NCBI RefSeq assembly: GCF_000717345.1
Contig: NZ_JNZA01000068.1
Location: 1-18,281, forward strand
Reading direction: 5' to 3'
DNA from: Streptomyces lydicus
GTDB taxonomy: Bacteria; Actinomycetota; Actinomycetes; Streptomycetales; Streptomycetaceae
Length of the DNA stretch: 18,281 bases
The notes under the pieces are model-generated. The model was not told where the DNA came from. It did no database searches and saw only the letters and a list, made by a program, of their open reading frames with translations. Shown here piece after piece: positions 1,850 to 17,676 of the stretch (the stretch's first letter is position 1; every line of letters starts with the position of its first letter). The translations under genes were made by a program, and so were the position numbers.

Positions 1850-2599
1850 ATGAGTGTGGGGCGTGGACGAAGACGGCTGGCCGCCGTGGCGCTGATTCTG
1901 ATTCTGCCGGGGCTGGTGTCGAGCGGATGCGGTGAACGCACCCCACGGGAGCCGCCGCCGAAGAAGGCCGCGCATGCCAAGCCGGCCAAGCTGTCCGAGA
2001 AACTCGACAAGAACGGCACCACCATCGTCGTCGGGAATACGAAGGCCCCGGTCACGGTGCATCTCTACGAGGACCCGCGTTGCCCGGTCTGCCAGGATTT
2101 CGAGGTGACCGGTGGTGGACCGGCCCTCCGCGTCATGACCCAGCGGGGTGAGGCGAAGACCGAGTACACCCTCGCGTCCTTCCTTGACCAGAGAGCGGGC
2201 GGCGGCGGCTCGAAGAGGGCCGTCAACGCCCTGCGTGCCGCGCTGGAAGCCGGAAAGTTCGCCGAGTACCACGCCGTGATCTACCGGTACCAGCCGGCAG
2301 AAGCCGTTGACGGCTACACCGACGCGCTGCTGCTGAAACTGGCCGGCAAGGTGGCGGGACTGCGCGGCCCGGCATTCGACTCCGCCGTCAAGACCATGAG
2401 GTACCGCGAGTTCGTCGATCGATCCGAGCGGGCCTACGAGCGAGCCGGGGGAGATGACCCCCGCGGCCCGGGCACGCCCACTGCAGTGGTCAATGGCCTG
2501 CAGGTGCCGGAGCAGTACTACGGGGTGCTCTTCGACCGAAGGTTGTTCACGCAGTTCCTCAAAGCAATCAGGAATCAGCCAGGGCAGTGGTCGTCGTAA
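1850..2599 (+). CDS. DsbA-family thioredoxin-like protein, secreted (possible lipoprotein)
   Basis: A 249-residue protein with an ATG at 1850 behind GGGAGAGG. The N-terminus has a basic run (RGRRR), a hydrophobic segment (about residues 10-23) and a Cys at 27 in LVSSGC. That is a weak lipobox, so it is either a lipoprotein or an exported protein anchored by its leader. After a Lys/Pro-rich linker, the thioredoxin fold starts near residue 58 with a WG-less version of the DsbA entry (VVGNTKAPVTVHLYEDPRC). The redox motif is C78-P-V-C81. A helical insert follows, and the cis-proline loop is G-T209-P210-T. This is the layout of the DsbA/Thioredoxin_4 family. It probably forms or reshuffles disulfides outside the membrane. 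The secreted LamG and RHS proteins nearby contain many cysteines, so they are possible substrates, but that link is only inference. Confidence 0.85.
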   Translation: MSVGRGRRRLAAVALILILPGLVSSGCGERTPREPPPKKAAHAKPAKLSEKLDKNGTTIVVGNTKAPVTVHLYEDPRCPVCQDFEVTGGGPALRVMTQRGEAKTEYTLASFLDQRAGGGGSKRAVNALRAALEAGKFAEYHAVIYRYQPAEAVDGYTDALLLKLAGKVAGLRGPAFDSAVKTMRYREFVDRSERAYERAGGDDPRGPGTPTAVVNGLQVPEQYYGVLFDRRLFTQFLKAIRNQPGQWSS

Positions 2600-2780: not shown

Positions 2781-3038
2781 AAGCCCCCTAGCGCCGTCCT
2801 CCAACACCGCACTCCCACCCCTTGGTGGCGCCGGCCCGCACTCAACTGCTTCGAGATCAGGGCTGATTACCTGGACTCATGCGCGGGGGCGCGGCGGACG
2901 GTGACTGCCGAGCATGGAACAGGTGCCGAAGGGAGACCCCGACGCCCTGCCGCCCCAGCAGCCGTCCTCTGACGTTGCGTTGCTGTCAACCGCTGAGGAG
3001 CCCCACCGGCCTCGAAATCCGGTGGAGCTCCTCACAGG

Positions 3039-3329
3039 CTATTCGAATATTACCGAGAAGCGATCGGACCATCCGAAGGATTCATCCTGTGCCTGAACAC
3101 GGAGGAGGAGATCGCGAATCTTCTCAAATTCGCTTTCGCCCAACGCCGTCCGGCTCAGCCCTGCCCTCTTCCAGACGATCTCGATCGGGCGCTCTACGTC
3201 CGTTGACAGTCGATCCCACAGGGCGCTCAGGTTGGCTCCATAGTAGGGGCCAAAATCTAGAGCTCGAGACAAGAATTCATGAAGATCACTCTCAGAGTGA
3301 ATCGCTGAACCATCGATTTCAATCCTCAT
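3039..3329 (-). CDS. Barstar-family RNase inhibitor (immunity protein)
   Basis: A 96-residue acidic protein. Its ATG at 3329 lies 6 nt after the stop of the RHS toxin, and the likely ribosome binding site (GGAAATGAG) overlaps the toxin's last codons, so translation is probably coupled. It aligns without gaps over the start of Bacillus barstar: I-D-G at 5-7, DLH at 15-17, Y29-Y30-G31, N33-L34, A36-L37-W38-D39. In barstar, Y29 and D39 plug the barnase active site, with D39 contacting R83, R87 and H102. Both are kept here. D35 is Ser, and the position equivalent to E76 (in the LLLRVQAQ helix) does not look acidic, so the interface differs from the textbook one. Its role is to bind and block the RNase domain at the end of the neighbouring RHS protein in the cytoplasm. 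The DNA looks less GC-rich than the RHS body. Confidence 0.93.
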   Translation of the reverse strand: MRIEIDGSAIHSESDLHEFLSRALDFGPYYGANLSALWDRLSTDVERPIEIVWKRAGLSRTALGESEFEKIRDLLLRVQAQDESFGWSDRFSVIFE

Positions 3330-3335
3330 GAGTTC

Positions 3336-6300
3336 TCATTTCCAGTTGGGTAGCTGATAGAAGCTCCTGTAGTGGTCGCTGGTTACGTAAGCGAGCCCGT
3401 CGTTCGAATAGACCAACCGAGTTCCCGGCTGCTTCGACCGCTTCATCATGTTGTTGATCCCCACATCTGCTTCGCGCCACGTCCGACCCCTGACGCTTGG
3501 CAGCGACCCGTCGGAATTTTCGAATACATCTCCGCCGATCTGAGCGCCCGGTATTTTGTTTCCCAATGCCTTTCCAGGTTCCCAGCCGGCAGCAGAAGCT
3601 TGCGCCTTGGTCACATAGTTACCGGGCAGGCTCCCCGTCGCGCGGAGACTTTCCATCAGCGGATTTGCCGCTTCCGCAGCTGCAAGAGCGCCACCGTACC
3701 GAATGCACGTCGAGTTATGCACAAGTACCGGGGTTTGCCCTGCCAGCACATAGTACGTGTGAGTGCCTGCGATGGTGAGGTCGTGCGTCTGCTGCTGCTT
3801 GGAGAAGTGGCGGAGCGCGGCGATCTTGACCTTTGCGCCCTGGGGGGTGCGGAGTTCGGTTCCTGGACGGAGGTCGCCGGCGTTGATCCACTTCTTCTTG
3901 TCAACGGACCAGAAGGGGTGGGTGTCGGTGGCGATGATGCTGGAGTCGCCGGATGGGGTTTTGAAGATGAGGTCGGTGAAGTGTTTGTCGTCCTTGGTGA
4001 CGATCGTGGCGACGACACGGCGGCTGGTGGTCTTGCCGGTTCTCGGGTCGGTGGCGATGACCTTGTCGCCGGTCTTTACGTCCTCGATGCGCTTTTGCTT
4101 GCCGTTGGCGAGGGCGACTTCGGTGTCGGGGACGAAGCTGTGGAAGCAGTTGCTCGCCTTGCCGGCGAGACGTCCGGCCATCCTGCCGGGGATATCGCCC
4201 TCGGTTGCAGCAGCTAGGGCTGCGGTGGCAAAAAGCTTGCTGAAGCTGTAGACGTCGTCGGGGCAGCCACCCTCGAGCCGGTAGCAGGCTTCGCTGAGCG
4301 CGTGCATGATCCGTACGCCGGCTAGCGGGCCATCTTCGAAGCGCGGGTTGCCCCACGGCTTGAATTCACTGGTGACGTTCGTGAACTCCCGCTCGAGGTC
4401 AGGGGCTTTCGCCCAGCTCAGAGGGGCGGAAACGCCCGGGTAGATCTCGTAGCGAGTCGGGCCGTTGTAGGCGGTGCGGCAGTACGGCTGGATGCAGGCG
4501 CCAGGGCCCGGGATGTAGTCCTTGGAGCCGGAGAGGCGCATGCCGCCGTGGCTGTTGTGGACGACTCCGCTGCCTCCGTGGCCTCCGGGGTCGGCGAAGA
4601 TCATGCCGGTGGGGTCGTTGAAGGTGAGCGGGTTGTTGTTGCCGTAGGTGTAGCCGTTGATCTGCTGGGGATCGGCCGGGTCCATCACCGGGTCGACGGA
4701 GAGGAAGCGCCCGGTATCCGGGTCGTATTCGCGGGCGCCGAGGTGGGTGAGGCCGGTGTCGGTGGTGTCGTCGGTGCCGCCGACGTAGCCCTTGGTGCCG
4801 GGCCAGGTGGTGGGCTTGGTGCCGCGAAGGGCGCCGAAGGGGAGTTGGCGGCGTTGGGTGAGGGTTTGGTTGGTGGTGTTGATGGCGAGTTGGCCGGTGC
4901 CGAGGCGGTCGGCGAGGGTGACGGTGTAGGTGCCGTCGTCGGCCAGGACGGCCTGGTTGCCGCTGCCCAGGGGGATGTAGCGGGTGGCCTTGGGTTTGTC
5001 GGCGCCCTTGTCGAGGGTGACCTCGGTGTGGTCGCCGAGGGTGAGGGTGGTCTTGGTGTCGGTGCGGGTGATCAGGCGGTTGCCGTCGGCGTCGTAGACG
5101 TAGCTGGTGGTCTTGGTGCCTGTGTCGCCCGCCGGTTCGGTGACCTTGGCCAGGTGGCCTTCGACGTCCCAGGTGAGGGTTTGCTTGTCGCCGTGGAGGA
5201 CGCGGGTGGTGGTGTTGCCGGTGTGGTCGTAGCCGTAGGTGGAGGTGCTGGTACCGGTGGGGCCGACGGCGTTGACAGCCGTGAGGGTGTGGGGCTGGGG
5301 AGTGCCGGGCTTGGGGTAGGTGTAGGTGTTCTTGGTGTCCTTGGCGGTGTCGCCGGTGGGGTCGTGCTGGGTGAGGGCGGTGCGGTTGCCGGCGGTGTCG
5401 TAGCCGTAGGACTGCCAGTAGGGGGCCGGGCCGGCGAGCAGGGGGCCGGCGGGCTTGTCAGCGCAGGTCTTTTCGTCCTGGGTCCAGGCTTCGGTGAGGC
5501 GGCGCAGGTAGTCGTAGGTGAAGCACTGGGTGTCGGTGCCGGAGCGGGACACGTCGGACAGTGCGGTGACGTTGCCGGCGGGGTCATAGCCGTAGGTGGC
5601 GGACTGGTCGACGCCGGCGACGTCCTGGCGGTCGACGCGGGAGTTGGACAGGCGCTGGGTGCCCCACTCGTAGGTGTTGGTGACCTGGGTGAACTTGCCG
5701 CCACCGCCGACGATCTTGTAGGTGAGGGGCTTGCCGGCGAGCGTGTAGGTGGCGTCGGAGCGGATGCCCGTGCCGTAGACGGTGGTCATCCGAAGGGTGG
5801 CGTCGTCGTAGGTGTAGTTCCACCCCTTGCCGACGATGTTCCCCATGGTGGAGAAGCTGCGCGCCTTCGGCAGGCCGTTGCCGTAGTACGAGGTGCCGGC
5901 CTGATAGGTGCCGGCCAGTGCACCCTCGGAGTCGGGGATGACGGTGGCGGTGCGCTGCGGTCGGTAGAGGGTGTCGTATTGGGTGACCTTGGTGGTGTAC
6001 GGCGTGCCGTTGAGGTAGCGGGTGGATTCGGCGAGCTGGCCCTTGGCACCGGCGAGGGTGTCGTAGACCCACTTGGCGCGCAGCGGGCCGTCGGGTGTCT
6101 TGTCGTGCAGTTCGGTCTTGCGGCCGAGGCCGTCGTAGACGGTGGCCAGTACGTCCCCGTTGGCGTCCTCGCTGGAGATCTGCTGGCCGCGGTCGTCGAA
6201 CGCGGCCTTGGTGACGCCCTTGTCGGGGTCGTTGGCCCAGGTCTGGTTGCCGAGCTGGTCGTACTGGTAGGCCCACTTGTTGCCGGCCGGGTCGGTGACG

Positions 6301-9300
6301 CTTTCGAGCTTGCCGGCCGGGGTGTAGGTGTAGCGAGTGGTCTCGGCCGGGGCGTCGGCGGCGCGGGTGTGGTGCTGCAGGAGTTGGGTGGTCTGCCCGC
6401 GGGCGTCGGTCACCGTGGTAGTGGCCGTGCCGCCTTCGGGCGGGAGCACGGTGGTGCGGTCACCGCCGTAGAGCGTCTTGGTGACCGCCAGGACCTTGCC
6501 GCCCTCGCCGTTGCCGGCGACATCCCGGCTCTCGGTCTCCCGGCCCAGCCCGTCGTGCGTCTTCCAGGTCTGGGTCTCGACGCCGAGGGCGTCGGCGGGC
6601 TTGAACAGCTCGCGTTCCGGCTTCTTCAGCGCGTAGTACGGGGCGAAGGTCTTCGCCACCAGCCCGCGTTCGTCGTAGAACGTGTCGCTGATCAGGCGCC
6701 CACCGTCAGGGCCGGGCGCCTGGACCTGGCGGGTGCGCAGGTAGCCGTCGTACAGGGCGTAGGAGACCGTCTGCGACTGAGCGCTGGGGTTGAGGGTGTA
6801 CGTGGCGACGGCAGCCGGCTTGCCCTCCTCGACCAGGTAGGCGAACTGGTAGGTGGGCAGGGAGCCGCGGTCGGGCAGCCACACCTTCACGGAGCGGCCC
6901 AGCGCGTCGTACTTCAGCGTGGTGCGCTTGGCGTTGGTGTCGACGGTGGCGATGGGCTGGCCGCGCAGCGGGTCGAGTTCGGTTGTGGTGGTCTGGGCGG
7001 TGGTGGCGTCCTTGGCGTCGGCGGGGGGTGTGGTGACGACGGTCTTGGTGGGGATGCCGGTGACGGGGGAGTAGGCCGTGGTGGTGGTGCGGCCGTCGGC
7101 GCGGAGGGTGCGGGTGGGTGCGCTGTCGCCGATGGCGGTGACGTTGGCCGTCAGGTCGGTGACCTTTTGCGGGCGGCCGTAGCCGTCGTAGGTGGTGCCG
7201 GTCTCCAGATAGGTGGCCGTGGTGCCGTCGTGCTTCTTGAGGTTGGCAACCGCGGTGGCGTCGCCCTTGGTGGGCGCTGTGCCGTAGCCACCCCCGTCGT
7301 AGGTGGTGCGGACGTCGGAGAGGACGTCCTTGGAACGGTCCGGGCTGCTGCCGCATTCGGTGGCGACGGTCTCGACCCGTGCGGGCAGGGTGAGGATGTT
7401 CTTGTCGGTGTTGGTGGCGTAGGTGGTGCGGGTGCAGCGGTCGTCGTCGGTGGTGGCGTCATCGCCGCGGTCGCTGACCTCGGTGACGCGTCCGGCGACG
7501 GTGTCGAAGGTGGAGGCCGTGGTGGTCGTGCGCCACTTCGCGCCGGCGCCGTCATCGAGCGAGGTCCAGGCGCGGGCGCTGGCCGTGCCGGTGAAGTTCG
7601 CGGTGACGGTTCCCCAGTCGCGGACCTTCTTGGCCGTCTGGTGGTGCCAGGGCCGGCTGACGGTCTTGGTGAGGATCTTCCCGCCGGGCCCCGAGTACGT
7701 GGCCGTCTTGTAGGGGAAGCCGGCCGCGGAGGCGTCGTCGGTGAGCGGCTCTCCCTCGCCCTCGTCCAGGGCGACGGAGACGTTCTTGGTGCCGCCGCTC
7801 GCGGTCTTGCGGTCGCCGTCCATGCCGCGCAGGAAGTAGCTGTCTTCTTGCGTCTTCATGGCGTCGGCAGGCGTGCCCTGGCCGCCGGTCTGGACGCGGA
7901 CGTGGCCGTAGCCGCGCCACTGTGACCAGGTCTTGAACTTCTCCTTGGTCAGCCCGTCGTCATCGTCGTAGTGCCAGGCCGCGTCACCGAGGTAGCTGTA
8001 GCGGGTGACCTGGTCGGGGGCCCCGCCGGTGCGGTCGGTGGTCGTCACGGAGGTGACGACGTACTTGTTGAACCACGACTTGTCCATGTCGTCGCTGGAG
8101 CTGCCGCCGATGAACTGCGGGAAGCAGCGGGTGGTGTTGGACTCCGGGGTGGGCAGGTCGTCGAACGCGCAGGCGGGCTCGGAGTAGCCGACGTCGGTCT
8201 GGCCGCCGTATTCGTCGTCGACGGTCGACAGGCGGTCCTTGATGTAGGGGGCGTATCCGTCGCCGGTCTTGTCGAGTCGGTTGGCCAGCTGGGTGTAGGC
8301 GAAGGTGGTCTTCGGCAGGGTGAGGGGCGTGGTGTCGGTGTGGCCGGTGTGCTGGATGGATTCCAGTTCCAGCTGGTAGTCGACATCGGCCTTGCCCCAA
8401 CGCTGGTTCAGGGCCCAGGAGTCGACCGGGGTGAGTGCGCCGTCCTTGAGGACCTCGGTGGTCACACCCGTCAGCCGCTTGCGCGTCCAGAAGGTGGGGG
8501 AGAAGCGCCCCTGGTCACAGGTGCTGCCGGCCTTGCAGTTCAGGTCCCAGGGCGTGTCGTACCAGTAGAAGCTCTTGGCGTCGATGGTGTCCGCCGCGCA
8601 GGTGACCCCGGTCTGGGGCAGGCAGCGCTCGGCGTTGCTGAAGGAGACCTGGGCGAGCGGCTTGCCCGCGTACAGGTCGCTGGACGACCGGCCGTACTCG
8701 ATGCGCTTGAGGGAGCCGCCGCGGATGTACGGGGTGTCGTCGTCCTTGTTCAGGTCACGCCCGTAGGAGTTGGTCTCCTTGTCGTAGTAGTACGCGATCG
8801 CGTCGCCGTGCGGGTCGACGACGTAGTCGAGGTTCCAGCGCCAGCCCTGCTGGCACCAGGAGTCCTTGAAGGCGTCCTTGTGGCAGTCCTCGCCGCTGTT
8901 GTTGCCGAAGACCGGCACGGTCCAGGTCGAGTCGGTGGTGTCCTTGCCGGCCGCCCAGCCGGGCAGCTTGTGGTAGCCGAAGTAGAACCGGGTTCCGGAG
9001 GGGTCCGTCAGCTCCCAGTACTCGTTGTCGTTGTCACCGTTGTCCCGCGCCGCCGACGTCAGGCGCTTGATCTTCGTGCCGTCGTCGTTCTGGAGCTTCC
9101 ACTCGTCCTTTCCGGCCGGGACGAGCTCGCCGGCCTTGCCGTTGAAGGAAATGAAGGCGTTGTCATACGACCAGCACAGATCGCCCGGCTTGTTGCCGTC
9201 GGCGTGCTTCTCCCCGTCGTCGGAACAGGGCTTGTAGCGGCGCTCGATGTACCCGGGCCACAGCTCGAAGCCGTCACCGACCCACGAACCCTGGTTGTTG

Positions 9301-10265
9301 CTGTTGCCGGTGCGGCCGTCGATCGAGCCGGACGAGTACGACAGGCCCACGCTCGGCTTGAGGCCGCCGGGCACCTCGGGGACGGGCATGTCGTAGGACC
9401 AGGTGAAGTCACCGGTGTTGAGGTTGGTGTCCCAGGTGGCGGAGGGGGACAGGCTGGTGGCCTTGTAGTCGCCCTTGACGCTCTTGTCGTCACCGACCGC
9501 CGCAAGCACGGTCGGGCCGTTCGCGCGCAGCGGAACCGAGGACGCGGTCAGGGTGTGCTTCTCGGTGTTGTTGCTGGTGGCGAGCGGCTTCGCGATGCGG
9601 CACGCGGACTTGTCCGGGGTGGTCGCGGCGCACGCAGGGAGTTCGACCAGGCGCAGGCGGGAGGCGTAGCCGCCGCCGTAGGCCCCGGCGAAGTCGCCGT
9701 AGTCGACACCCACCCGTAAGGAGCCGGGCTGCTGCCCGGCGGCCGCGGGGGAGCCGCCGGCCGGCTGAAGGGTGAACAACACCCCGTCGATGCCGGCCCG
9801 GCGACTGTACTGCTGGCTCAGGACGCCTGCGGCCACGGCTTCGGGTACCGCCTTGGACATCCCACTTCGGTGCGCCCCGGTCGCCTTGGTTGACCTTCGC
9901 GAATCTGACTCGGCGGGAGCGAGCGTCAGGGGAAGACGCTCGTTACTCCCGCCTGCTGCCGACGACGGAGGCACGGCGCCAGGACCGGCGAGGCGAATGG
10001 TCGCCTTGGTGGCCTTGGGCCAGTTGCTCCTGGGGCGCTCCTTGGGGACGCGTGGTCTGCTGGGGAGCTTCCGGGGCTTGACCCGCATGCCATCGATCCC
10101 CGGAACGGGTTTTCCGACGTCGGGCCGGCTCGGTGCCCCAGGTGCCGCTGCCGCTTGAGCCACCGGGAGAGCCTGCAACAGGGATCCGGCCAGCACCGCA
10201 GAGACGCCCATGGCGACTTTGCGGTGGAGCCGAGTACGTCTGAAGAGGCCGCGCATGCCGTTCAC
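3336..10265 (-). CDS. Secreted RHS/YD-repeat polymorphic toxin with HINT domain and barnase-type RNase tip
   Basis: A 2309-residue protein. I chose GTG 10265 because GAGGTGGGG precedes it by 6 nt. ATG 10256 is the alternative; longer starts would run into the upstream gene. Residues 1-42 form a signal peptide (RRTRLHRK, hydrophobic core, AQAAAA). A Pro/Lys-rich linker follows. The N-terminal shell starts near 280. From about 1025 to 1790 there are many YD repeats (QYDQLGN, YGYDPAGN, YGYDTAGN, YVYDADGN). The RHS-associated core lies at about 1790-1890 (REYDPDTGRFLSVDPV, GYTYGNNNPL, DPTG). After a variable region come a HINT domain (2040-2184) and a barnase-like RNase (2185-2309). It is the type of exported effector that shields a toxin in an RHS cocoon and delivers it to competing cells. 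The LamG gene upstream and barstar gene downstream fit a single toxin-immunity locus. Confidence 0.93.
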   Translation of the reverse strand: MNGMRGLFRRTRLHRKVAMGVSAVLAGSLLQALPVAQAAAAPGAPSRPDVGKPVPGIDGMRVKPRKLPSRPRVPKERPRSNWPKATKATIRLAGPGAVPPSSAAGGSNERLPLTLAPAESDSRRSTKATGAHRSGMSKAVPEAVAAGVLSQQYSRRAGIDGVLFTLQPAGGSPAAAGQQPGSLRVGVDYGDFAGAYGGGYASRLRLVELPACAATTPDKSACRIAKPLATSNNTEKHTLTASSVPLRANGPTVLAAVGDDKSVKGDYKATSLSPSATWDTNLNTGDFTWSYDMPVPEVPGGLKPSVGLSYSSGSIDGRTGNSNNQGSWVGDGFELWPGYIERRYKPCSDDGEKHADGNKPGDLCWSYDNAFISFNGKAGELVPAGKDEWKLQNDDGTKIKRLTSAARDNGDNDNEYWELTDPSGTRFYFGYHKLPGWAAGKDTTDSTWTVPVFGNNSGEDCHKDAFKDSWCQQGWRWNLDYVVDPHGDAIAYYYDKETNSYGRDLNKDDDTPYIRGGSLKRIEYGRSSSDLYAGKPLAQVSFSNAERCLPQTGVTCAADTIDAKSFYWYDTPWDLNCKAGSTCDQGRFSPTFWTRKRLTGVTTEVLKDGALTPVDSWALNQRWGKADVDYQLELESIQHTGHTDTTPLTLPKTTFAYTQLANRLDKTGDGYAPYIKDRLSTVDDEYGGQTDVGYSEPACAFDDLPTPESNTTRCFPQFIGGSSSDDMDKSWFNKYVVTSVTTTDRTGGAPDQVTRYSYLGDAAWHYDDDDGLTKEKFKTWSQWRGYGHVRVQTGGQGTPADAMKTQEDSYFLRGMDGDRKTASGGTKNVSVALDEGEGEPLTDDASAAGFPYKTATYSGPGGKILTKTVSRPWHHQTAKKVRDWGTVTANFTGTASARAWTSLDDGAGAKWRTTTTASTFDTVAGRVTEVSDRGDDATTDDDRCTRTTYATNTDKNILTLPARVETVATECGSSPDRSKDVLSDVRTTYDGGGYGTAPTKGDATAVANLKKHDGTTATYLETGTTYDGYGRPQKVTDLTANVTAIGDSAPTRTLRADGRTTTTAYSPVTGIPTKTVVTTPPADAKDATTAQTTTTELDPLRGQPIATVDTNAKRTTLKYDALGRSVKVWLPDRGSLPTYQFAYLVEEGKPAAVATYTLNPSAQSQTVSYALYDGYLRTRQVQAPGPDGGRLISDTFYDERGLVAKTFAPYYALKKPERELFKPADALGVETQTWKTHDGLGRETESRDVAGNGEGGKVLAVTKTLYGGDRTTVLPPEGGTATTTVTDARGQTTQLLQHHTRAADAPAETTRYTYTPAGKLESVTDPAGNKWAYQYDQLGNQTWANDPDKGVTKAAFDDRGQQISSEDANGDVLATVYDGLGRKTELHDKTPDGPLRAKWVYDTLAGAKGQLAESTRYLNGTPYTTKVTQYDTLYRPQRTATVIPDSEGALAGTYQAGTSYYGNGLPKARSFSTMGNIVGKGWNYTYDDATLRMTTVYGTGIRSDATYTLAGKPLTYKIVGGGGKFTQVTNTYEWGTQRLSNSRVDRQDVAGVDQSATYGYDPAGNVTALSDVSRSGTDTQCFTYDYLRRLTEAWTQDEKTCADKPAGPLLAGPAPYWQSYGYDTAGNRTALTQHDPTGDTAKDTKNTYTYPKPGTPQPHTLTAVNAVGPTGTSTSTYGYDHTGNTTTRVLHGDKQTLTWDVEGHLAKVTEPAGDTGTKTTSYVYDADGNRLITRTDTKTTLTLGDHTEVTLDKGADKPKATRYIPLGSGNQAVLADDGTYTVTLADRLGTGQLAINTTNQTLTQRRQLPFGALRGTKPTTWPGTKGYVGGTDDTTDTGLTHLGAREYDPDTGRFLSVDPVMDPADPQQINGYTYGNNNPLTFNDPTGMIFADPGGHGGSGVVHNSHGGMRLSGSKDYIPGPGACIQPYCRTAYNGPTRYEIYPGVSAPLSWAKAPDLEREFTNVTSEFKPWGNPRFEDGPLAGVRIMHALSEACYRLEGGCPDDVYSFSKLFATAALAAATEGDIPGRMAGRLAGKASNCFHSFVPDTEVALANGKQKRIEDVKTGDKVIATDPRTGKTTSRRVVATIVTKDDKHFTDLIFKTPSGDSSIIATDTHPFWSVDKKKWINAGDLRPGTELRTPQGAKVKIAALRHFSKQQQTHDLTIAGTHTYYVLAGQTPVLVHNSTCIRYGGALAAAEAANPLMESLRATGSLPGNYVTKAQASAAGWEPGKALGNKIPGAQIGGDVFENSDGSLPSVRGRTWREADVGINNMMKRSKQPGTRLVYSNDGLAYVTSDHYRSFYQLPNWK
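3339..3713 (-). other. Barnase-type RNase toxin domain of the RHS protein
   Basis: Residues 2185-2309 align with Bacillus barnase over nearly its whole length: LPGNYVTK, AAGW, IGGDVF, RTWREAD, SDHYRSFYQL. Barnase K27 corresponds to K2220, the general base E73 to E2265 (codon 3471-3473), R83 to R2276, R87 to R2283 and the general acid H102 to H2298 (codon 3372-3374). The domain should therefore be an active endoribonuclease that cleaves single-stranded RNA through a 2',3'-cyclic intermediate. Barnase R59, in the guanine-recognition loop, is Ser2251 here (codon 3513-3515), so base preference and inhibitor contacts may differ. Confidence 0.92.
3714..4148 (-). other. HINT (intein-like) self-cleavage domain of the RHS protein
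   Basis: The domain covers residues 2040-2184. It starts at C2040 (CFHSFVPDTEVALANG), continues with IEDVKTGDKVIATD and the TDTHPFW block containing the conserved TxxH, and ends VLVHN, followed by S2185. This is the arrangement of inteins and of pretoxin-HINT domains: an N-terminal Cys, a block B His and a terminal His-Asn before a nucleophile. Cleavage at N2184 would release the RNase without extra sequence. Splicing is unlikely, because in such toxins the domain usually cuts rather than ligates. Confidence 0.9.
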
Positions 10266-10345: not shown

Positions 10346-10374
10346 GTGGCGGGCGGTCCGAGACCGCCCGCCAC
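10346..10374 (-). terminator. Perfect hairpin between the LamG and RHS genes
   Basis: GTGGCGGGCGGTC, loop CGA, GACCGCCCGCCAC: a 13-bp perfect stem beginning 4 nt after the LamG stop codon. On the - strand a TTTTT run follows about 13 nt beyond the stem. It may terminate transcription, or lower RHS expression relative to the LamG gene by partial read-through or mRNA end protection. Confidence 0.6.
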
Positions 10375-10378
10375 GTGA

Positions 10379-13300
10379 TCAGCCCGCGTCGGGCACGTTC
10401 GGTACCTCGGTGGGCAGCTCGTACCACTCGCCTGCCAGGCGGCCGATTTGTTCCTCGGTGAGCGCGCCCTGGAAGGCCCAGACGTCGTCGATCGAGCCAG
10501 GCCAGTAGTCCCGGAAGGCGCCACGCCCCTTCGCCCGGCCGATCTGCAGTGACTTCAGGGCCTCGATGGAGATGACGTCTTCGGCCCACGGCACCACCTC
10601 GGTGCACTGCGCATCATCGGCCCGGCCGTCGCCGTCCGCGTCCAGGCAGGCCGCCTCCCCGAGCTCACCGTTGACGTAGATGCGCAGGAGCCGGGCGAAG
10701 CCGTCGTACACGATCGCGATGTGGTTCCAGTCCGTCACGCTGCTCATGGGGTGCGCGCTGCCTGCCCAGTCGTAGTCCGTATCGCTGGTGTCGGTGCGGG
10801 AGGTGACCGCCTGCCACACTCCGTCACCTGTCTTCGTCGGGTTCGGCGCCAACCCCATGGCGAAGCCGCTGGCATTCGTTGCCTCAGCGCTCACCAGCAC
10901 CGCCGGGCGGGTGGGGACCGATGCCGCCTGTGCCCATGCGGTCACGGTGAAACTCTCACTGGTGTCGAGGGGGATCGCGCTGGAGGCATAGCTCTGTGCG
11001 CCGTCCAGGACCAGCCCGCCGTCTCCCAGGAACCCTGCCCCGCTGACCTGCTTCGCCCCGCCGCTCAGCGTCATGGCCGGCCCCTGCGCTACGGAGTTGG
11101 CCCCGGGGCTGGCTGTCTGGTCGAACTGCCAGCGGCCGGTCAGGACCGGTCGTCGCTGGACGAGCTGGTGGATCTCGCCCTCGGAGACCGGGCGGTCGAA
11201 GGTCCGCACGTCATCGATCTGCCCGGCCAGGTAGTCGGTGTAGGCGCCCCGGTAGAGAGCCCGACCGATCTGCAGGGCACCGTCGCCGTACCATGCCTGC
11301 GGTGCGTCGGCGCTGCCCTGCAGGATGCCGTTGACGTACAGGCTCACCGTGTTGTGCACCGTGTCGTGCACCGCGGCCAGGTGCACCCACTTGCCGATGG
11401 TCGCCTTCTGCTTGGAGGCGACGCGTTGCTGGGTGAGGCCACCGTCGGTGGCGTCCTTGGTGGCAAGACGGGCACTCCACACGCCACCGGATGCTTCGTA
11501 GGAGAGGTAGAAGGCGCTGAGGAAGCTGCCGTCCTGCGCCACGACCGTCTGGTTGCGTGCGGCGTCGGTGACCCGGGCCCATGCGGTGACCGCATAGGAG
11601 CGTTCGGTATTGAAGTGCGCGGCGCCCACCGAGGCGTAGTCGTCCTTGCCGTCCAGGGTCAGGGCGTTGCCCGCCACGCCTGCCTTACCAGGCTCGGCAC
11701 CGCCGTGCAGGACGGCCGGCATGACCTCACCATGGCCGCTGACCTGCTTGGCATCGGTCGGCTCGTCGAGCGGGAAGACCGCACGGGCCGGTCGCCCGGG
11801 ACCAAGGATCCGCTCCTTGTTGTACAGCCGGGTGACCTCACCGGCGGAGACCGGCTTGTCGAAGATCTGCACCTCGTCGATGGAACCGGGGAAGAAGGAG
11901 CCGGGCGTCCCACCGTACGAGCCGGCGCCCAGCTGGAGGCCGCGCCGTGCGTTCCATGCGCCGACGTACGGCGTCTGCCCGACGAGCTTGCCGTTGACGT
12001 AGAGCTGGAGCACCTTGGCGGTGCTGTCGTAGGCACCCACCAGGTGGGTCCATTCGTTCGCGGTGACACCACCGGGCTGGGACGCCATAGCGCGGGCGAT
12101 GGAGGCGTCGGGGCTGTCGGAGGTGTACTGGTTGAACACCCACCGCTTGAGGTCAAAGGAGTAGTACAGCTCGAAGCCGGGCCGGTTGTTGCCCGGCTGG
12201 GTGGCGACGATCGCCGCATGGTCGGGCACCTGGTTGGGGCGGACCCAGGCCGAGACGGAGAACCCACGGGAGGTGTCCACGACGGGGATGTCGGTGGCTG
12301 CATAACCGTCGACGCCGTTGAGGGACAGCGCGCTGCCCACCACCCCCTCCGCACCAGGTGTGGCTCCGCCGTGCAGCTCCGCGGTCCGCGCCGGGGTGGA
12401 ACCCTTCGCTTCCGTGGCGCCGGCCACCTCGTCGAACTGCCAGGTGGCACGCTCGGGTTGCCCGGCCTTGACCCGGAACTGGTAGGTGCGGATCTCGCTT
12501 CTGTTGCCGGCTGCGTCGGTGGCCTGGACGGTCACGAAGTTCAGTCCGGGCTTCTCCGGCAGGACGGAGATGTTCCGTGCCGCCCCGCCGCTCGTCGTCA
12601 CCGTGTTCTTGTCGGACGGGTCACCGTTGACGCCGTACGTGTAGCGGTTCACGTCCCGGTGGCTGTCCGCCACGGTGAAGGTGCCGTACTGGCCCACCCC
12701 GTCGTACCAAGGATCTTCAGGATTCTCGGGGTCGGAGGAGGGGTACTCCCCTGAGCCAATCGTGGGGGCCACGGGCACCTGGGTGTCGAGGACGAAGTAG
12801 CACGCCTCGGCGGACCCGGTGAACGACCACGGTGAGTACTGCGCGCCGTCGTAGGTCCGCACAGCCCAGCTCACCGTCGTGTTCACCGGGACCTTGGGCA
12901 GGGGGATGGCGAAATCGGAGCCGGACCCCTTCGCCGTCGTCAGCCCCGGCTTCCACCGTGCGATGGCGCCCTTGCCGTCACCGGCGTCCCAGGTCGCCTG
13001 GAACTGGACCTGCACCTTGTCCCGATCCGGGTCGGTGATGTTGTTCGCGTACAGCACACCCCCGCTACGCACCCGCGCCGGAGCGCCGGACTTCTTGCAC
13101 GTTCCGCCGTACTGCATCGTCAGCTGGGAGGGCTTCACCTGCGGCGGCGGCCGGTTGTACTTCACCCGCAGAAACGCCTTGTCGGAGAAGCGCTTCCACG
13201 CCAGACCGTCGCCCTCGCTACCCGCCTTCAACCCGAACGTCAGCGTCGGCCACTTGTTGTCCGCCGCCTCCTGCACCGCGGACCTGATGCCGAACTCGGC

Positions 13301-14707
13301 GTCCTTGGCCGCGCAGCCCTCATAGCCGTAGGCGAAGCTGTCCGCGGCCAGCTGCTTCTGCCAGAAGCCCGACTCGTTCTGTGAGTTCCATGTCGTCGAG
13401 GACGAGATGGGCTTGGTCCGCCACAGTTCCACCTCCTTCTTGCTGCAGGAGGCCGACCAGGTGTTACGGACCACGAACTCGGCCGACAACACCGACTTAC
13501 CGGCGAACGCCGACGTCGGGATCTGGTAGAAGAGCCGCTTGGTGTCCTCGGGCTGGCAGTGGTTCCAGTCGCAATACCCCATCCCCGCGTCGTGGTCGCC
13601 GTTGAACTTCCACTGCGGGGAGGAGGCCCAGTACTTCGACGCCATCGTCCAGGAGGCCGCCCGAGGGGTGGACCACTGCGGGTCGATGTAGACGGGGTAG
13701 ACGGTGTCCTTGCCCTTCAGCACGCCGGCGTCGGGCTTGAGGACGACCTGGTCCTGACCGGTCGGGACGTCCACTCCCACAGGCGCGAGCTTGCCCGACT
13801 CGCCGGCCGACGGTTCACCGCCCCCGGCGTCGCCCTCCGCCCCTCGGAGGGCGGTTTTCCCTTCGCCCGGTACGGACTTCGCCCCCTTGCGGGCTGCTGC
13901 GGCGTTCCCCCCACCCGTACCCGTACCTGTACCCGTACTCGAGTCCCACATCAGCGGCGTGGGCGCCTCGAAGACCGCAGAGCCTGCGCCCTTGTCGAGT
14001 GCCTCCAAACCACCGGCCGCCGTCTCCTTGACGTCCATGCCGTCGGCCGCCAGCTTCAGCCGCAGCTGCGCCAGCTGCGAACTGGCGGCAGCTTGAGCCG
14101 TCTTGACGACCAGGAGCTGGGTGAAGCCGTCGGCCTGAGCCCCCATCCGTAGGTCCACACCGGGCAGGACGTCGCGATACGTGGCCTGTGCGCCGTCCAG
14201 CACCGGAGCCGGCAGGGATCCTGGCCAGGACAGCGCCAGCTGACGACCCACCTTACGAAGCGTCACCAGTGGCGTGTCGCCACCGCCGGAGAACGCCAGG
14301 CTTACGGCTGCCGCCTTCGGCACCACCGTCCCGTCGCTCCGCTTGGTCAGGTCGGTGTCGATGTCCTGCCACTGCCCCGAGACCCGGGTGCGGACCGGAC
14401 GGAGGTACTGACGGGCCTCAAGCTTGCCGTCCGCAGTGGCCACGACATCAGCCGACTCACCCCGGAGCGAGGTGACTTCGACCTCCCGGCCGGTGCGCTT
14501 GGCCTGCTCCAGGGCGGTGTCTTCGTTGGGCGCTTCGGTGTCCGACTGCTTTGTTGAGGCGACGGCCGTGGCAGAGGGTGCCGACGGATGGGGCACGGCC
14601 CAGGCGGGCGGTGCGAGGGCCACTGGCAACAGACTTGCCGACAGCAGCCCGCCTAACCCGGCTGAGAGCACTCGATGTAAGCGTCCGCGACGCACTGAGC
14701 CAGGCAT
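10379..14707 (-). CDS. Secreted protein with DNRLRE-like region and three LamG domains
   Basis: A 1442-residue exported protein. I chose ATG 14707 because GGGGG ends 9 nt upstream; ATG 14716 directly abuts that run and would add three residues. The signal peptide has a basic start (RRGRLHR) and a hydrophobic core ending PPAWA. Regions: an N-terminal domain common in streptomycete cell-surface proteins (about 40-255); a low-complexity Thr-Gly linker (258-265); a DNRLRE-like beta domain (about 340-518, starting YPVYIDPQW and cysteine-rich); Ig-like segments (about 520-750); and three LamG/concanavalin-like domains (about 756-962, 973-1182 and 1193-1426). All three carry the family signature LYVNG or IYVNG and G.IDDV or G.IDEV. 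The third has an inserted acidic loop, DADGDGRADD. LamG domains bind glycans or proteins, so it may act as an adhesin or docking partner for the RHS toxin encoded next. The role is inference. Confidence 0.88.
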   Translation of the reverse strand: MPGSVRRGRLHRVLSAGLGGLLSASLLPVALAPPAWAVPHPSAPSATAVASTKQSDTEAPNEDTALEQAKRTGREVEVTSLRGESADVVATADGKLEARQYLRPVRTRVSGQWQDIDTDLTKRSDGTVVPKAAAVSLAFSGGGDTPLVTLRKVGRQLALSWPGSLPAPVLDGAQATYRDVLPGVDLRMGAQADGFTQLLVVKTAQAAASSQLAQLRLKLAADGMDVKETAAGGLEALDKGAGSAVFEAPTPLMWDSSTGTGTGTGGGNAAAARKGAKSVPGEGKTALRGAEGDAGGGEPSAGESGKLAPVGVDVPTGQDQVVLKPDAGVLKGKDTVYPVYIDPQWSTPRAASWTMASKYWASSPQWKFNGDHDAGMGYCDWNHCQPEDTKRLFYQIPTSAFAGKSVLSAEFVVRNTWSASCSKKEVELWRTKPISSSTTWNSQNESGFWQKQLAADSFAYGYEGCAAKDAEFGIRSAVQEAADNKWPTLTFGLKAGSEGDGLAWKRFSDKAFLRVKYNRPPPQVKPSQLTMQYGGTCKKSGAPARVRSGGVLYANNITDPDRDKVQVQFQATWDAGDGKGAIARWKPGLTTAKGSGSDFAIPLPKVPVNTTVSWAVRTYDGAQYSPWSFTGSAEACYFVLDTQVPVAPTIGSGEYPSSDPENPEDPWYDGVGQYGTFTVADSHRDVNRYTYGVNGDPSDKNTVTTSGGAARNISVLPEKPGLNFVTVQATDAAGNRSEIRTYQFRVKAGQPERATWQFDEVAGATEAKGSTPARTAELHGGATPGAEGVVGSALSLNGVDGYAATDIPVVDTSRGFSVSAWVRPNQVPDHAAIVATQPGNNRPGFELYYSFDLKRWVFNQYTSDSPDASIARAMASQPGGVTANEWTHLVGAYDSTAKVLQLYVNGKLVGQTPYVGAWNARRGLQLGAGSYGGTPGSFFPGSIDEVQIFDKPVSAGEVTRLYNKERILGPGRPARAVFPLDEPTDAKQVSGHGEVMPAVLHGGAEPGKAGVAGNALTLDGKDDYASVGAAHFNTERSYAVTAWARVTDAARNQTVVAQDGSFLSAFYLSYEASGGVWSARLATKDATDGGLTQQRVASKQKATIGKWVHLAAVHDTVHNTVSLYVNGILQGSADAPQAWYGDGALQIGRALYRGAYTDYLAGQIDDVRTFDRPVSEGEIHQLVQRRPVLTGRWQFDQTASPGANSVAQGPAMTLSGGAKQVSGAGFLGDGGLVLDGAQSYASSAIPLDTSESFTVTAWAQAASVPTRPAVLVSAEATNASGFAMGLAPNPTKTGDGVWQAVTSRTDTSDTDYDWAGSAHPMSSVTDWNHIAIVYDGFARLLRIYVNGELGEAACLDADGDGRADDAQCTEVVPWAEDVISIEALKSLQIGRAKGRGAFRDYWPGSIDDVWAFQGALTEEQIGRLAGEWYELPTEVPNVPDAG
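13913..13936. repeat. Four tandem ACCCGT-type hexamers
   Basis: Four 6-bp units (ACCCGT, ACCCGT, ACCTGT, ACCCGT) lie inside the LamG-protein gene. On the coding strand they encode a (Thr-Gly)4 linker at about residues 258-265. Slippage would change linker length by two residues per unit without a frameshift. Confidence 0.8.
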
Positions 14708-14999
14708 TCCCGTCATCCCCCGACCACAAAAATGAAGATTCCATGAAGAAGTTGTGGGCGGGAACGTATATGCCGGAGGGTTTGCCTGGGTACCTCCATG
14801 AAACGGCATCCATGGAACGGAACCGACATTCCGGCAAGCGGAGCTGTGTGATGCCTGTCACCGCGCGGGAAGGTTGTACCGCTTCTGGCCGTATCCGCAG
14901 CAAGAATCCGCCAGAGCAGCGTCACCGCCGGACCTGGATAACGGCTTCCGACCAGGCCGCCCTCGACCAGGTGCAGTCCGTGAAGCCCGGGGGCCGTGC
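14708..14999. promoter_or_regulatory. Divergent spacer between the LamG gene and the T7SS-like gene
   Basis: This 292-bp spacer separates two divergent transcription units and must hold at least one promoter for the LamG-RHS-barstar operon. It has A/T-richer patches, including TATACG on the - strand (about 14767-14772) that could be a -10 box. I could not find a convincing matching -35 box. A TCCATG/CATGGA inverted repeat lies near 14795-14816. No gene is credible here. Confidence 0.35.
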
Positions 15000-16627: not shown

Positions 16628-17131
16628 TCAGCGGCTGCTCCTGGCCCGGGTGGTTTTCTTGCCGCCGGGGCTGGACGTCGTCGTGCGGATCTCCTCGGTG
16701 GCTGCGCGGAAGGCGGGCGCGGCGTGCCTGAAGTAGTCGAAGAGCAGGGCGCGCTGCTCGGACGTGTAGCGCGCCAGGATCTCGGCGATGTGGCGCCGGG
16801 CCGGGCCGACGACCTCCTCGATGCGGTCGAGCGCGTCGGGCACCGGCTCGACGATCACGCGTCTGCGGTCGTTGGGGTCCGCGGCGCGGCGCGCGTATCC
16901 GGCCTGCTCAAGGCGGTCGATCAGGCGGGTGGTGGCGCCAGTGGTGAGCCCGGTCCTGGAGGCCAACTCGCCCGAGGAAAGGCTGCCTTCGCGTGTGATC
17001 AGGCTGAGTGCGTACCACTCCGAGGTGTGCAGTCCTGCCGCCTCCGCGCTGGCCAGGCCCTGGAGGCCGACCGCATCCAGGTACTCACGGAAGACCAGAT
17101 GCTCGTCCGCGGCGTCTGCGGGGGTTGTCAT
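16628..17131 (-). CDS. MarR-family transcriptional regulator
   Basis: A 167-residue protein. ATG 17131 is preceded by AGGAGG 11 nt upstream. Helical dimerisation regions flank a winged helix-turn-helix: SEWYALSLITREG (about 37-49), the recognition region LSSGELASRTGLTTGATTRL (51-70), and the wing with the MarR signature DPNDRRRV (85-92). The C-terminus ends in a basic tail (GGKKTTRARSSR), which is unusual and may add DNA contacts. It is divergent from the SnoaL-like gene. The shared 95-bp spacer contains a perfect palindrome just outside its start, so it most likely represses itself and its neighbour until a ligand binds. No cysteine is present, so a cysteine-based redox sensor is unlikely. 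Confidence 0.92.
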   Translation of the reverse strand: MTTPADAADEHLVFREYLDAVGLQGLASAEAAGLHTSEWYALSLITREGSLSSGELASRTGLTTGATTRLIDRLEQAGYARRAADPNDRRRVIVEPVPDALDRIEEVVGPARRHIAEILARYTSEQRALLFDYFRHAAPAFRAATEEIRTTTSSPGGKKTTRARSSR

Positions 17132-17153
17132 CGGTGGAGCCGCCTCCTAAAGT

Positions 17154-17173
17154 TATCTGCATGCATGCAGATA
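17154..17173. promoter_or_regulatory. 20-bp perfect palindrome, probable MarR operator
   Basis: TATCTGCATGCATGCAGATA is a perfect inverted repeat with no spacer, in the spacer between the MarR gene (start 17131) and the SnoaL-like gene (start 17227). MarR dimers bind such palindromes. Position and symmetry make it the likely operator for both promoters. Confidence 0.8.
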
Positions 17174-17226
17174 CTGCGCTGATTCAGAATCTGCTCCAGT
17201 CTAACCAAAGAGGGGAGTCGCCCACC

Positions 17227-17676
17227 ATGACGACCACGGATGACGTCGCTGCGGTCACCTCGGTACTGAACGAACTCGTCGCCGCATGGGGACGGCACGA
17301 CGCCGACGCATACGGCGAGTTGTTCACTGACGACGCCACCTACATCACCTTTCTCGGCACCCTCTACCAAGGACGTCAGGACATCGTGGACAGCCACCGT
17401 TCACTGTTCGCGGGGTTCCTCAAGAGCACCCAGCTCGCGGACGAGGTTCTCGACATCCGCTTCCCCGGGCCGGATGTAGCCGTCGTCAACGGCCGCGGCG
17501 ACACCTATAAAGGCAAGCGGCCATCAAGGCTCACCAAGATCCAGACGTACACCCTGGTCCGCCAAGGTGACCGGCAGTGGCGTATTGCGGCCTTCCACAA
17601 CACCAAGCGCAAACCGCTGAGGGAATCCCTCTCCTTCAGGTTCGCCCCGGGCCTCATCCCGGCCGCAGAGAAATAA
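17227..17676 (+). CDS. SnoaL-like (SgcJ/EcaC family) protein
   Basis: A 149-residue protein starting at ATG 17227, with GGGGAG 10 nt upstream. The pattern is that of the NTF2/SnoaL fold: an N-terminal helix (DVAAVTSVLNELVAAWGRHD), then ADAYGELFTDDATYITFLGT, YQGRQDIVDSHRSLF, and strands ending in the typical WRIAAFHNTK. Streptomycete proteins with this pattern are annotated as SgcJ/EcaC family oxidoreductases or DUF4440 proteins. The true substrate is generally unknown. It is divergent from the MarR gene and likely controlled by the palindrome between them, so it may handle the compound that MarR senses. Confidence 0.88.
   Translation: MTTTDDVAAVTSVLNELVAAWGRHDADAYGELFTDDATYITFLGTLYQGRQDIVDSHRSLFAGFLKSTQLADEVLDIRFPGPDVAVVNGRGDTYKGKRPSRLTKIQTYTLVRQGDRQWRIAAFHNTKRKPLRESLSFRFAPGLIPAAEK

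Follow-up and report, generated by a model that had tools for sequence, protein, structure and literature searches.

The window, which is the whole 18,281-nucleotide stretch of Streptomyces lydicus DNA analysed here, very probably encodes a polymorphic toxin–immunity pair, in which an exported RHS protein would carry a guanyl-type RNase tip released by a HINT domain, a barstar would give protection, and tip and barstar would be exchanged as a cassette. The earlier note had proposed a barnase-type RNase at the end of a giant exported RHS protein, paired with barstar immunity, in an actinomycete, and this proposal is borne out, with export as probable, by homology, predicted fold, gene order and comparative data. 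It did not extend to the HINT processing domain, to the tip being a cassette, or to the fact that the arrangement already appears in the tables of Zhang et al. (2012; PMC3482391). As a putative delivered weapon made from the textbook barnase–barstar pair, the locus is a clean natural case, and it touches the question of how Gram-positive RHS toxins enter cells. Barnase–barstar is among the best-measured protein complexes, so the variable tip–immunity relatives could help in learning how toxin–immunity specificity changes.

Layout of the locus and domains of the RHS protein

The features of the window are listed in Table 1. On the minus strand they are transcribed in the order LamG gene, RHS gene, barstar gene, with a gap of 6 nt between the end of the RHS gene at 3336 and the barstar gene, as the earlier note had stated. 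The RHS gene probably starts with the GTG at 10265, behind GAGGTGGGG; this gives a protein of 2309 residues, matching the length given previously, within a longest ORF of 2423 codons. The hairpin just past the barstar stop is the probable transcription end of the toxin–immunity unit, while that between the LamG and RHS genes, which has no T run directly after it, may separate or attenuate transcription; neither was listed by a scan for terminators, in which a T run is required. The flanks of the locus encode Thioredoxin_4 (DsbA-like), MarR and SnoaL/DUF4440 proteins, at 1850-2599 (+), 16628-17131 (-) and 17008-17676 (+).

Table 1. Coordinates of the features in the window and the basis of each call.
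Feature	Position	Strand	Basis
Strong hairpin just past the barstar stop	2994..3034	-	-36.1 kcal/mol, z -5.4
Barstar-family immunity gene, 96 codons (96 aa)	3039..3329	-	PF01337, PDB barstar, AF2 and Foldseek
RHS toxin gene, RHS/YD repeats, signal-peptide-like N-terminus	3336..10265	-	GTG start and signal peptide judged by eye
RHS longest ORF, 2423 codons	3336-10607	-	ORF list
Barnase-type RNase tip, S2299-K2423 of the 2423-codon ORF	3339..3713	-	PF00545, PDB binase, AF2 and Foldseek
PT-HINT (intein-like) pretoxin domain, S2157 to N2298	3714..4139	-	PF07591 and motif positions; start from a sub-threshold intein_Nterm match
RHS repeat-associated core, residues 1923-2002	4602..4841	-	TIGR03696, E 5.5e-15
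Hairpin with a perfect 13-bp stem, between LamG and RHS genes	10346-10374	-	-29.8 kcal/mol, z -6.4
LamG partner gene, 1476-codon ORF, exported-looking, Laminin_G_3 domains	10379..14809	-	PF13385, E 9.4e-71

The RHS protein has a long stalk with matches to PF05593, TIGR01643 and TIGR03696, and its N-terminus shows, by eye only, a basic start, a hydrophobic stretch and an Ala-rich end. A Pfam search of the protein gave no match to a PAAR domain. Delivery as a T6SS Rhs effector was therefore rejected, on the missing PAAR match together with the Streptomyces host.

Ahead of the tip lies a PT-HINT domain (PF07591, 61.5 bits against a cut-off of 27.7, E 1.3e-16, residues 2171-2299). The range of 3039-4148 put forward in the earlier note holds for the tip and the barstar, and it also covers this domain, which the note left unnamed. 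The HINT motifs are T2227-D-T-H2230 and the C-terminal H2297-N2298, followed by Ser2299, and the 125-residue tip begins at this +1 Ser. A motif scan of 28 genus loci (L090 and L111 having been excluded beforehand) found H-N ahead of the tip in all 28, the end pattern having demanded the H and not the N; TxxH is present in 27 and a Cys-Phe start pattern in 22. The residue following the Asn across the scanned loci is S, C, A, T or D. From the analogy with intein chemistry, which is the basis for placing cleavage past an Asn, the tip is probably freed by HINT cleavage past Asn2298. This is made less certain by the start of the domain, since the apparent position 1 is Ser2157 (from the sub-threshold intein_Nterm match), with Cys2154 three residues earlier.

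Using the N-terminal part of the LamG partner as query, we found an RHS chassis 0–11 kb downstream on the same strand in 44 of the 49 best LamG places, own included; four of the five places without one are in assemblies of 790–1770 contigs. We therefore conclude that LamG and RHS genes are linked in Streptomyces. The linkage may bear on toxin display, and the LamG protein is a possible dedicated surface or delivery partner. Among the papers listed by a literature search, no title or abstract opening was recognised as describing LamG proteins as partners of Streptomyces RHS toxins, which is a weak absence.

The barnase-type tip and its barstar

The alignment of the last 125 residues with barnase, as claimed in the earlier note, is upheld by family, structure database and predicted fold. 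Within the whole protein the tip matches PF00545 with 35.4 bits (cut-off 24, E 1.6e-8), and in a genome search with 40.6 bits; against the PDB the best match is binase (E 1.9e-24), with barnase entries close behind. The AlphaFold2 model of the tip, made without S2299, has a pLDDT of 92.4, and Foldseek places barnase at rank 1 (E 3.5e-12, rmsd 1.4, TM 0.76 on the query). The next gene is equally consistent with the barstar that had been named: its product matches PF01337 with 66.5 bits (cut-off 23.4, E 2.1e-18) and PDB barstar with E 1.8e-10, its model has a pLDDT of 94.2, and Foldseek ranks barstar first (E 7.1e-8, rmsd 2.0). Both proteins thus exceed their Pfam cut-offs in the profile search that the earlier note proposed, and its concern about a fold without an E73/H102-type active site is answered by a barnase fold with both equivalents present. 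The nearest named homologues of the window barstar, in Streptomyces, are already titled “barstar family protein”.

Barnase-type RNases use a Glu as base and a His as acid. Residues are numbered here after the barnase and barstar fragments of the PDB matches. The window tip has the equivalents of K27, E73, R87 and H102, as previously listed, and in an alignment of 44 tips (that of the window and those of 43 loci, some of them broken) E73 is conserved in 44, R87 in 43, H102 in 42 and K27 in 41. The remaining residue of that list, R83, was probably right in substance, with the alignment one column off: column 83 is K in the window tip, the column after it holds Arg in 42 of the 44 tips, and a 4-residue insertion lies between the R83 and R87 positions. 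As judged from the alignment, the role of R83 is probably taken by the next column, beside the insertion.

With a single His and no Phe-Pro, the tip lacks the residues of the Tox-Barnase motif of Zhang et al. (H, H, [ST], FP, [STD]); we therefore filed it by PF00545 and fold and not by that motif, and conclude that it is of the Bacillus barnase type. Its PF00545 score of 35.4 bits is moderate compared with 83–86 bits for the free barnases of the same genome. Elsewhere in this genome, contig C13 encodes a free barnase with a barstar adjoining, C48 a second free barnase, and C1 a 386-aa open frame that ends in a barstar-like domain (together L001, L003, L004 and L005). The two other barnases, L004 and L005, score 86.4 and 83.3 bits, against 40.6 for the tip in the genome search, and the matched part of L005 contains FP and four His. 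A search of the own genome with the tip found only the tip itself among the 15 of 39 candidates scored. These scores and the self-match lend no support to the view that the tip was captured as a copy of a barnase from its own genome.

In the classical complex, Arg59 of barnase faces Asp35 of barstar, and Asp39 fills the active site. The Arg59 column is Arg in none of the 44 tips. Their 44 barstar partners all have Asp in the Asp39 column, and in the Asp35 column 24 have Asp, 12 Asn, 6 Ser, one His and one Gly. In the window pair, tip position 59 and barstar position 35 are both Ser, so that the DxxxD motif of barstar reads SxxxD with the second Asp kept. Among the 44 aligned barstars, those lacking the first Asp still match the barstar profile, and PF01337 membership is independent of this motif. 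The comparison, which included one classical barnase only, suggests that the interface of the window pair is changed relative to the classical one. Pairwise co-loss of R59 and D35 is weakened as an explanation, because R59 is missing in all tips yet D35 is kept in 24 of the 44 partners; what remains of the idea, on the aligned columns, is a relaxed constraint on D35 and no pair-by-pair covariation. A joint reading would combine a clade of delivered barnases, a rewired inhibitor interface, orthogonality to the free pair of the cell, and LamG as dedicated delivery partner. We hold it tentatively and think it rather unlikely as a whole; if true, the Arg59–Asp35 salt bridge would have been given up, and immunity would rest on Asp39 and new contacts.

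Cassette boundary and relatives across species

A 419-residue query, running from before the RHS core to the HINT end, was found in at least 187 of 199 Streptomyces genomes, own included (best nine or fewer candidates in each). The ends of the best 30 Streptomyces loci (own included) were compared by BLASTP (E 1e-4), 27 being taken by the HINT end motif and L090, L109 and L111 as the last 200 residues; only one similar pair was found, L093/L096. The RHS protein of L115 is 79.6% identical to that of the window over residues 1-2299 and carries another tip beyond, and L114, whose chassis is the nearest, keeps 92.1% identity over residues 86-2043 and differs from there on. Conversely, when seven window proteins were compared, L041, L042 and L044 had nothing but HINT, tip and barstar in common with the window.

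At L114 (2196 and below) both the LamG and the RHS proteins are about 92% identical to those of the window, and the end past the equivalent of residue 2043 is unrelated. No HINT end motif was seen in the last 200 residues of the L114 relative (L090), and the tip swap there seems to have taken the HINT domain away too. The tail of L085, whose chassis is 60% identical over the 419-residue query, has by eye the look of a small ADP-ribosyltransferase.

Base composition marks the same boundary. The RHS body has a GC content of 0.686, the tip one of 0.583 and the barstar gene one of 0.529. The GC3 of the tip, 0.656, is below the minimum of 0.734 among 207 windows taken from the same RHS gene clear of the tip, which rules against chance as the source of its low GC. 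In a plasmid collection, 50 records match part of a 1110-base query and none covers 80% of it; all ten matches listed of the 50 end at query positions 434-445, where the HINT/tip boundary is at 435. Among the features annotated at that place in the plasmid records are a DddA-like deaminase toxin and HNH/ENDO VII nucleases. Tip and barstar are a low-GC cassette that starts at the HINT boundary and differs from what the nearest chassis carry as tips; in which direction and when the exchange at this boundary took place, we infer.

A scan with the tip alignment of 84,980 species, one genome per species, found 43 loci with related tips, which from their genera we take to belong to Actinomycetota, Pseudomonadota, Bacillota, Myxococcota and one cyanobacterial MAG. 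In all 43, a search with a profile built from homologues of the window barstar found a barstar homologue directly downstream of the tip. The chassis were identified by a Pfam scan of the tip-bearing ORFs of 40 of the 43 loci, over at most about 830 residues each. They include RHS repeats, ALF repeats with PT-HINT, PT-HINT alone, Fil_haemagg_2 and/or PT-VENN as in CdiA, PT-TG, PrsW, Tox-PAAR-like and DUF6861; in many ORFs the scanned stretch gave the RNase domain alone or no match at all. The occurrence of the tip on so many types of chassis leads us to conclude that the tip–barstar pair is a mobile cassette.

Within Streptomyces the tip is rare, being present in at least 4 of 291 genomes, own included (best 15 or fewer candidates scored per genome). 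The tip of L065 (Streptomyces olivochromogenes), at about 10270, matches in two frames beside a complete barstar match, and is either a broken gene or a sequencing error; at L078, L081 and L083 the frames are interrupted or partial. At L058 (1272-2281) and L063 (10372-10914), tandem barstar-like open frames follow one barnase tip, and are perhaps spare immunity genes.

Proposed mechanism and comparison with known systems

We propose that the RHS protein would be exported by a Sec/Tat-type signal, and that the HINT domain, on its motifs and the domain order, probably cuts between Asn2298 and Ser2299 to give a free 125-residue guanyl-type RNase. The freed RNase would enter competing, probably related, cells and, by analogy with barnase, degrade RNA, a Glu acting as base and a His as acid. 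Barstar from the next gene would place Asp39 in the active site and so protect the producer and its kin. The tip–barstar cassette would be swapped at the HINT/tip boundary, where comparison demonstrates the difference from the tips of the nearest chassis.

The protein could instead be a secreted RNase with an anti-eukaryote or nutritional role such as phosphate scavenging, its barstar guarding the producer before export as with Bacillus barnase. Secretion is classical for guanyl RNases, free barnases occur widely in the genus (242 of 295 genomes have a PF00545 match, and among the frames listed most are short), and the own genome has one beside a barstar; however, a giant RHS/HINT chassis with unlike tips fits antagonism and not scavenging, as does the occurrence of this tip on chassis of the CdiA-, PT-TG- and PAAR-like types, and we regard a scavenging or anti-eukaryote role as improbable. 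Marginally less probable still is a decayed or silent cassette that has lost its function. Such decay would suit the rarity of the tip in Streptomyces and the broken frames at L065, L078, L081 and L083, but the window RHS frame is uninterrupted, its catalytic residues are retained, and the codirectional barstar gene is intact.

The assignment to the polymorphic toxins rests on homology, the adjoining barstar gene, the many chassis, the varied tips and the cassette boundary. With its barnase-type tip and a barstar for immunity, the system belongs to a kind of polymorphic toxin that was listed in 2012 (PMC3482391). In the parts of that work drawn on here, Zhang et al. discuss the order of toxin then immunity gene and barnase cassettes in larger polymorphic systems, and treat HINT as a general processing domain of polymorphic toxins. 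Their Tox-Barnase/Imm-Barstar systems share with the window a barnase-clade tip, an RHS stalk, an actinobacterial host and barstar immunity. Their Tox-Barnase row, however, has PVC-metallopeptidase and neither HINT nor T5SS, whereas the window has HINT and its relatives include CdiA-like chassis. The motif of that row is absent from the window tip, and DxxxD of the Imm-Barstar row becomes SxxxD in the window. Since L005 has FP and several His, the Tox-Barnase row may describe mainly barnases of the L005 type.

With the Bacillus barnase/binase–barstar pairs the window pair shares the fold, the catalytic residues and barstar Asp39. It differs in that Arg59 and barstar Asp35 are replaced and four residues are inserted between the R83 and R87 positions, and in that Bacillus barnase is a free secreted RNase whereas the window RNase is the tip of a giant protein. 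Bacillus subtilis WapA has YD/RHS repeats. In the excerpted account of PMC9990079, WapA is, like the window protein, a secreted Gram-positive protein with a variable C-terminal RNase-type toxin; its toxins are tRNases with no domain assigned in that excerpt, whereas the window tip is barnase-type with HINT ahead. In the CDI system of P. brassicacearum DF41 (CD58_03755), a barstar-domain protein is the predicted immunity according to the corresponding excerpt of PMC4725963. It thus shares with the window a predicted barstar-domain immunity to a delivered tip and, unlike the window system, belongs to CdiA two-partner secretion in a Gram-negative bacterium.
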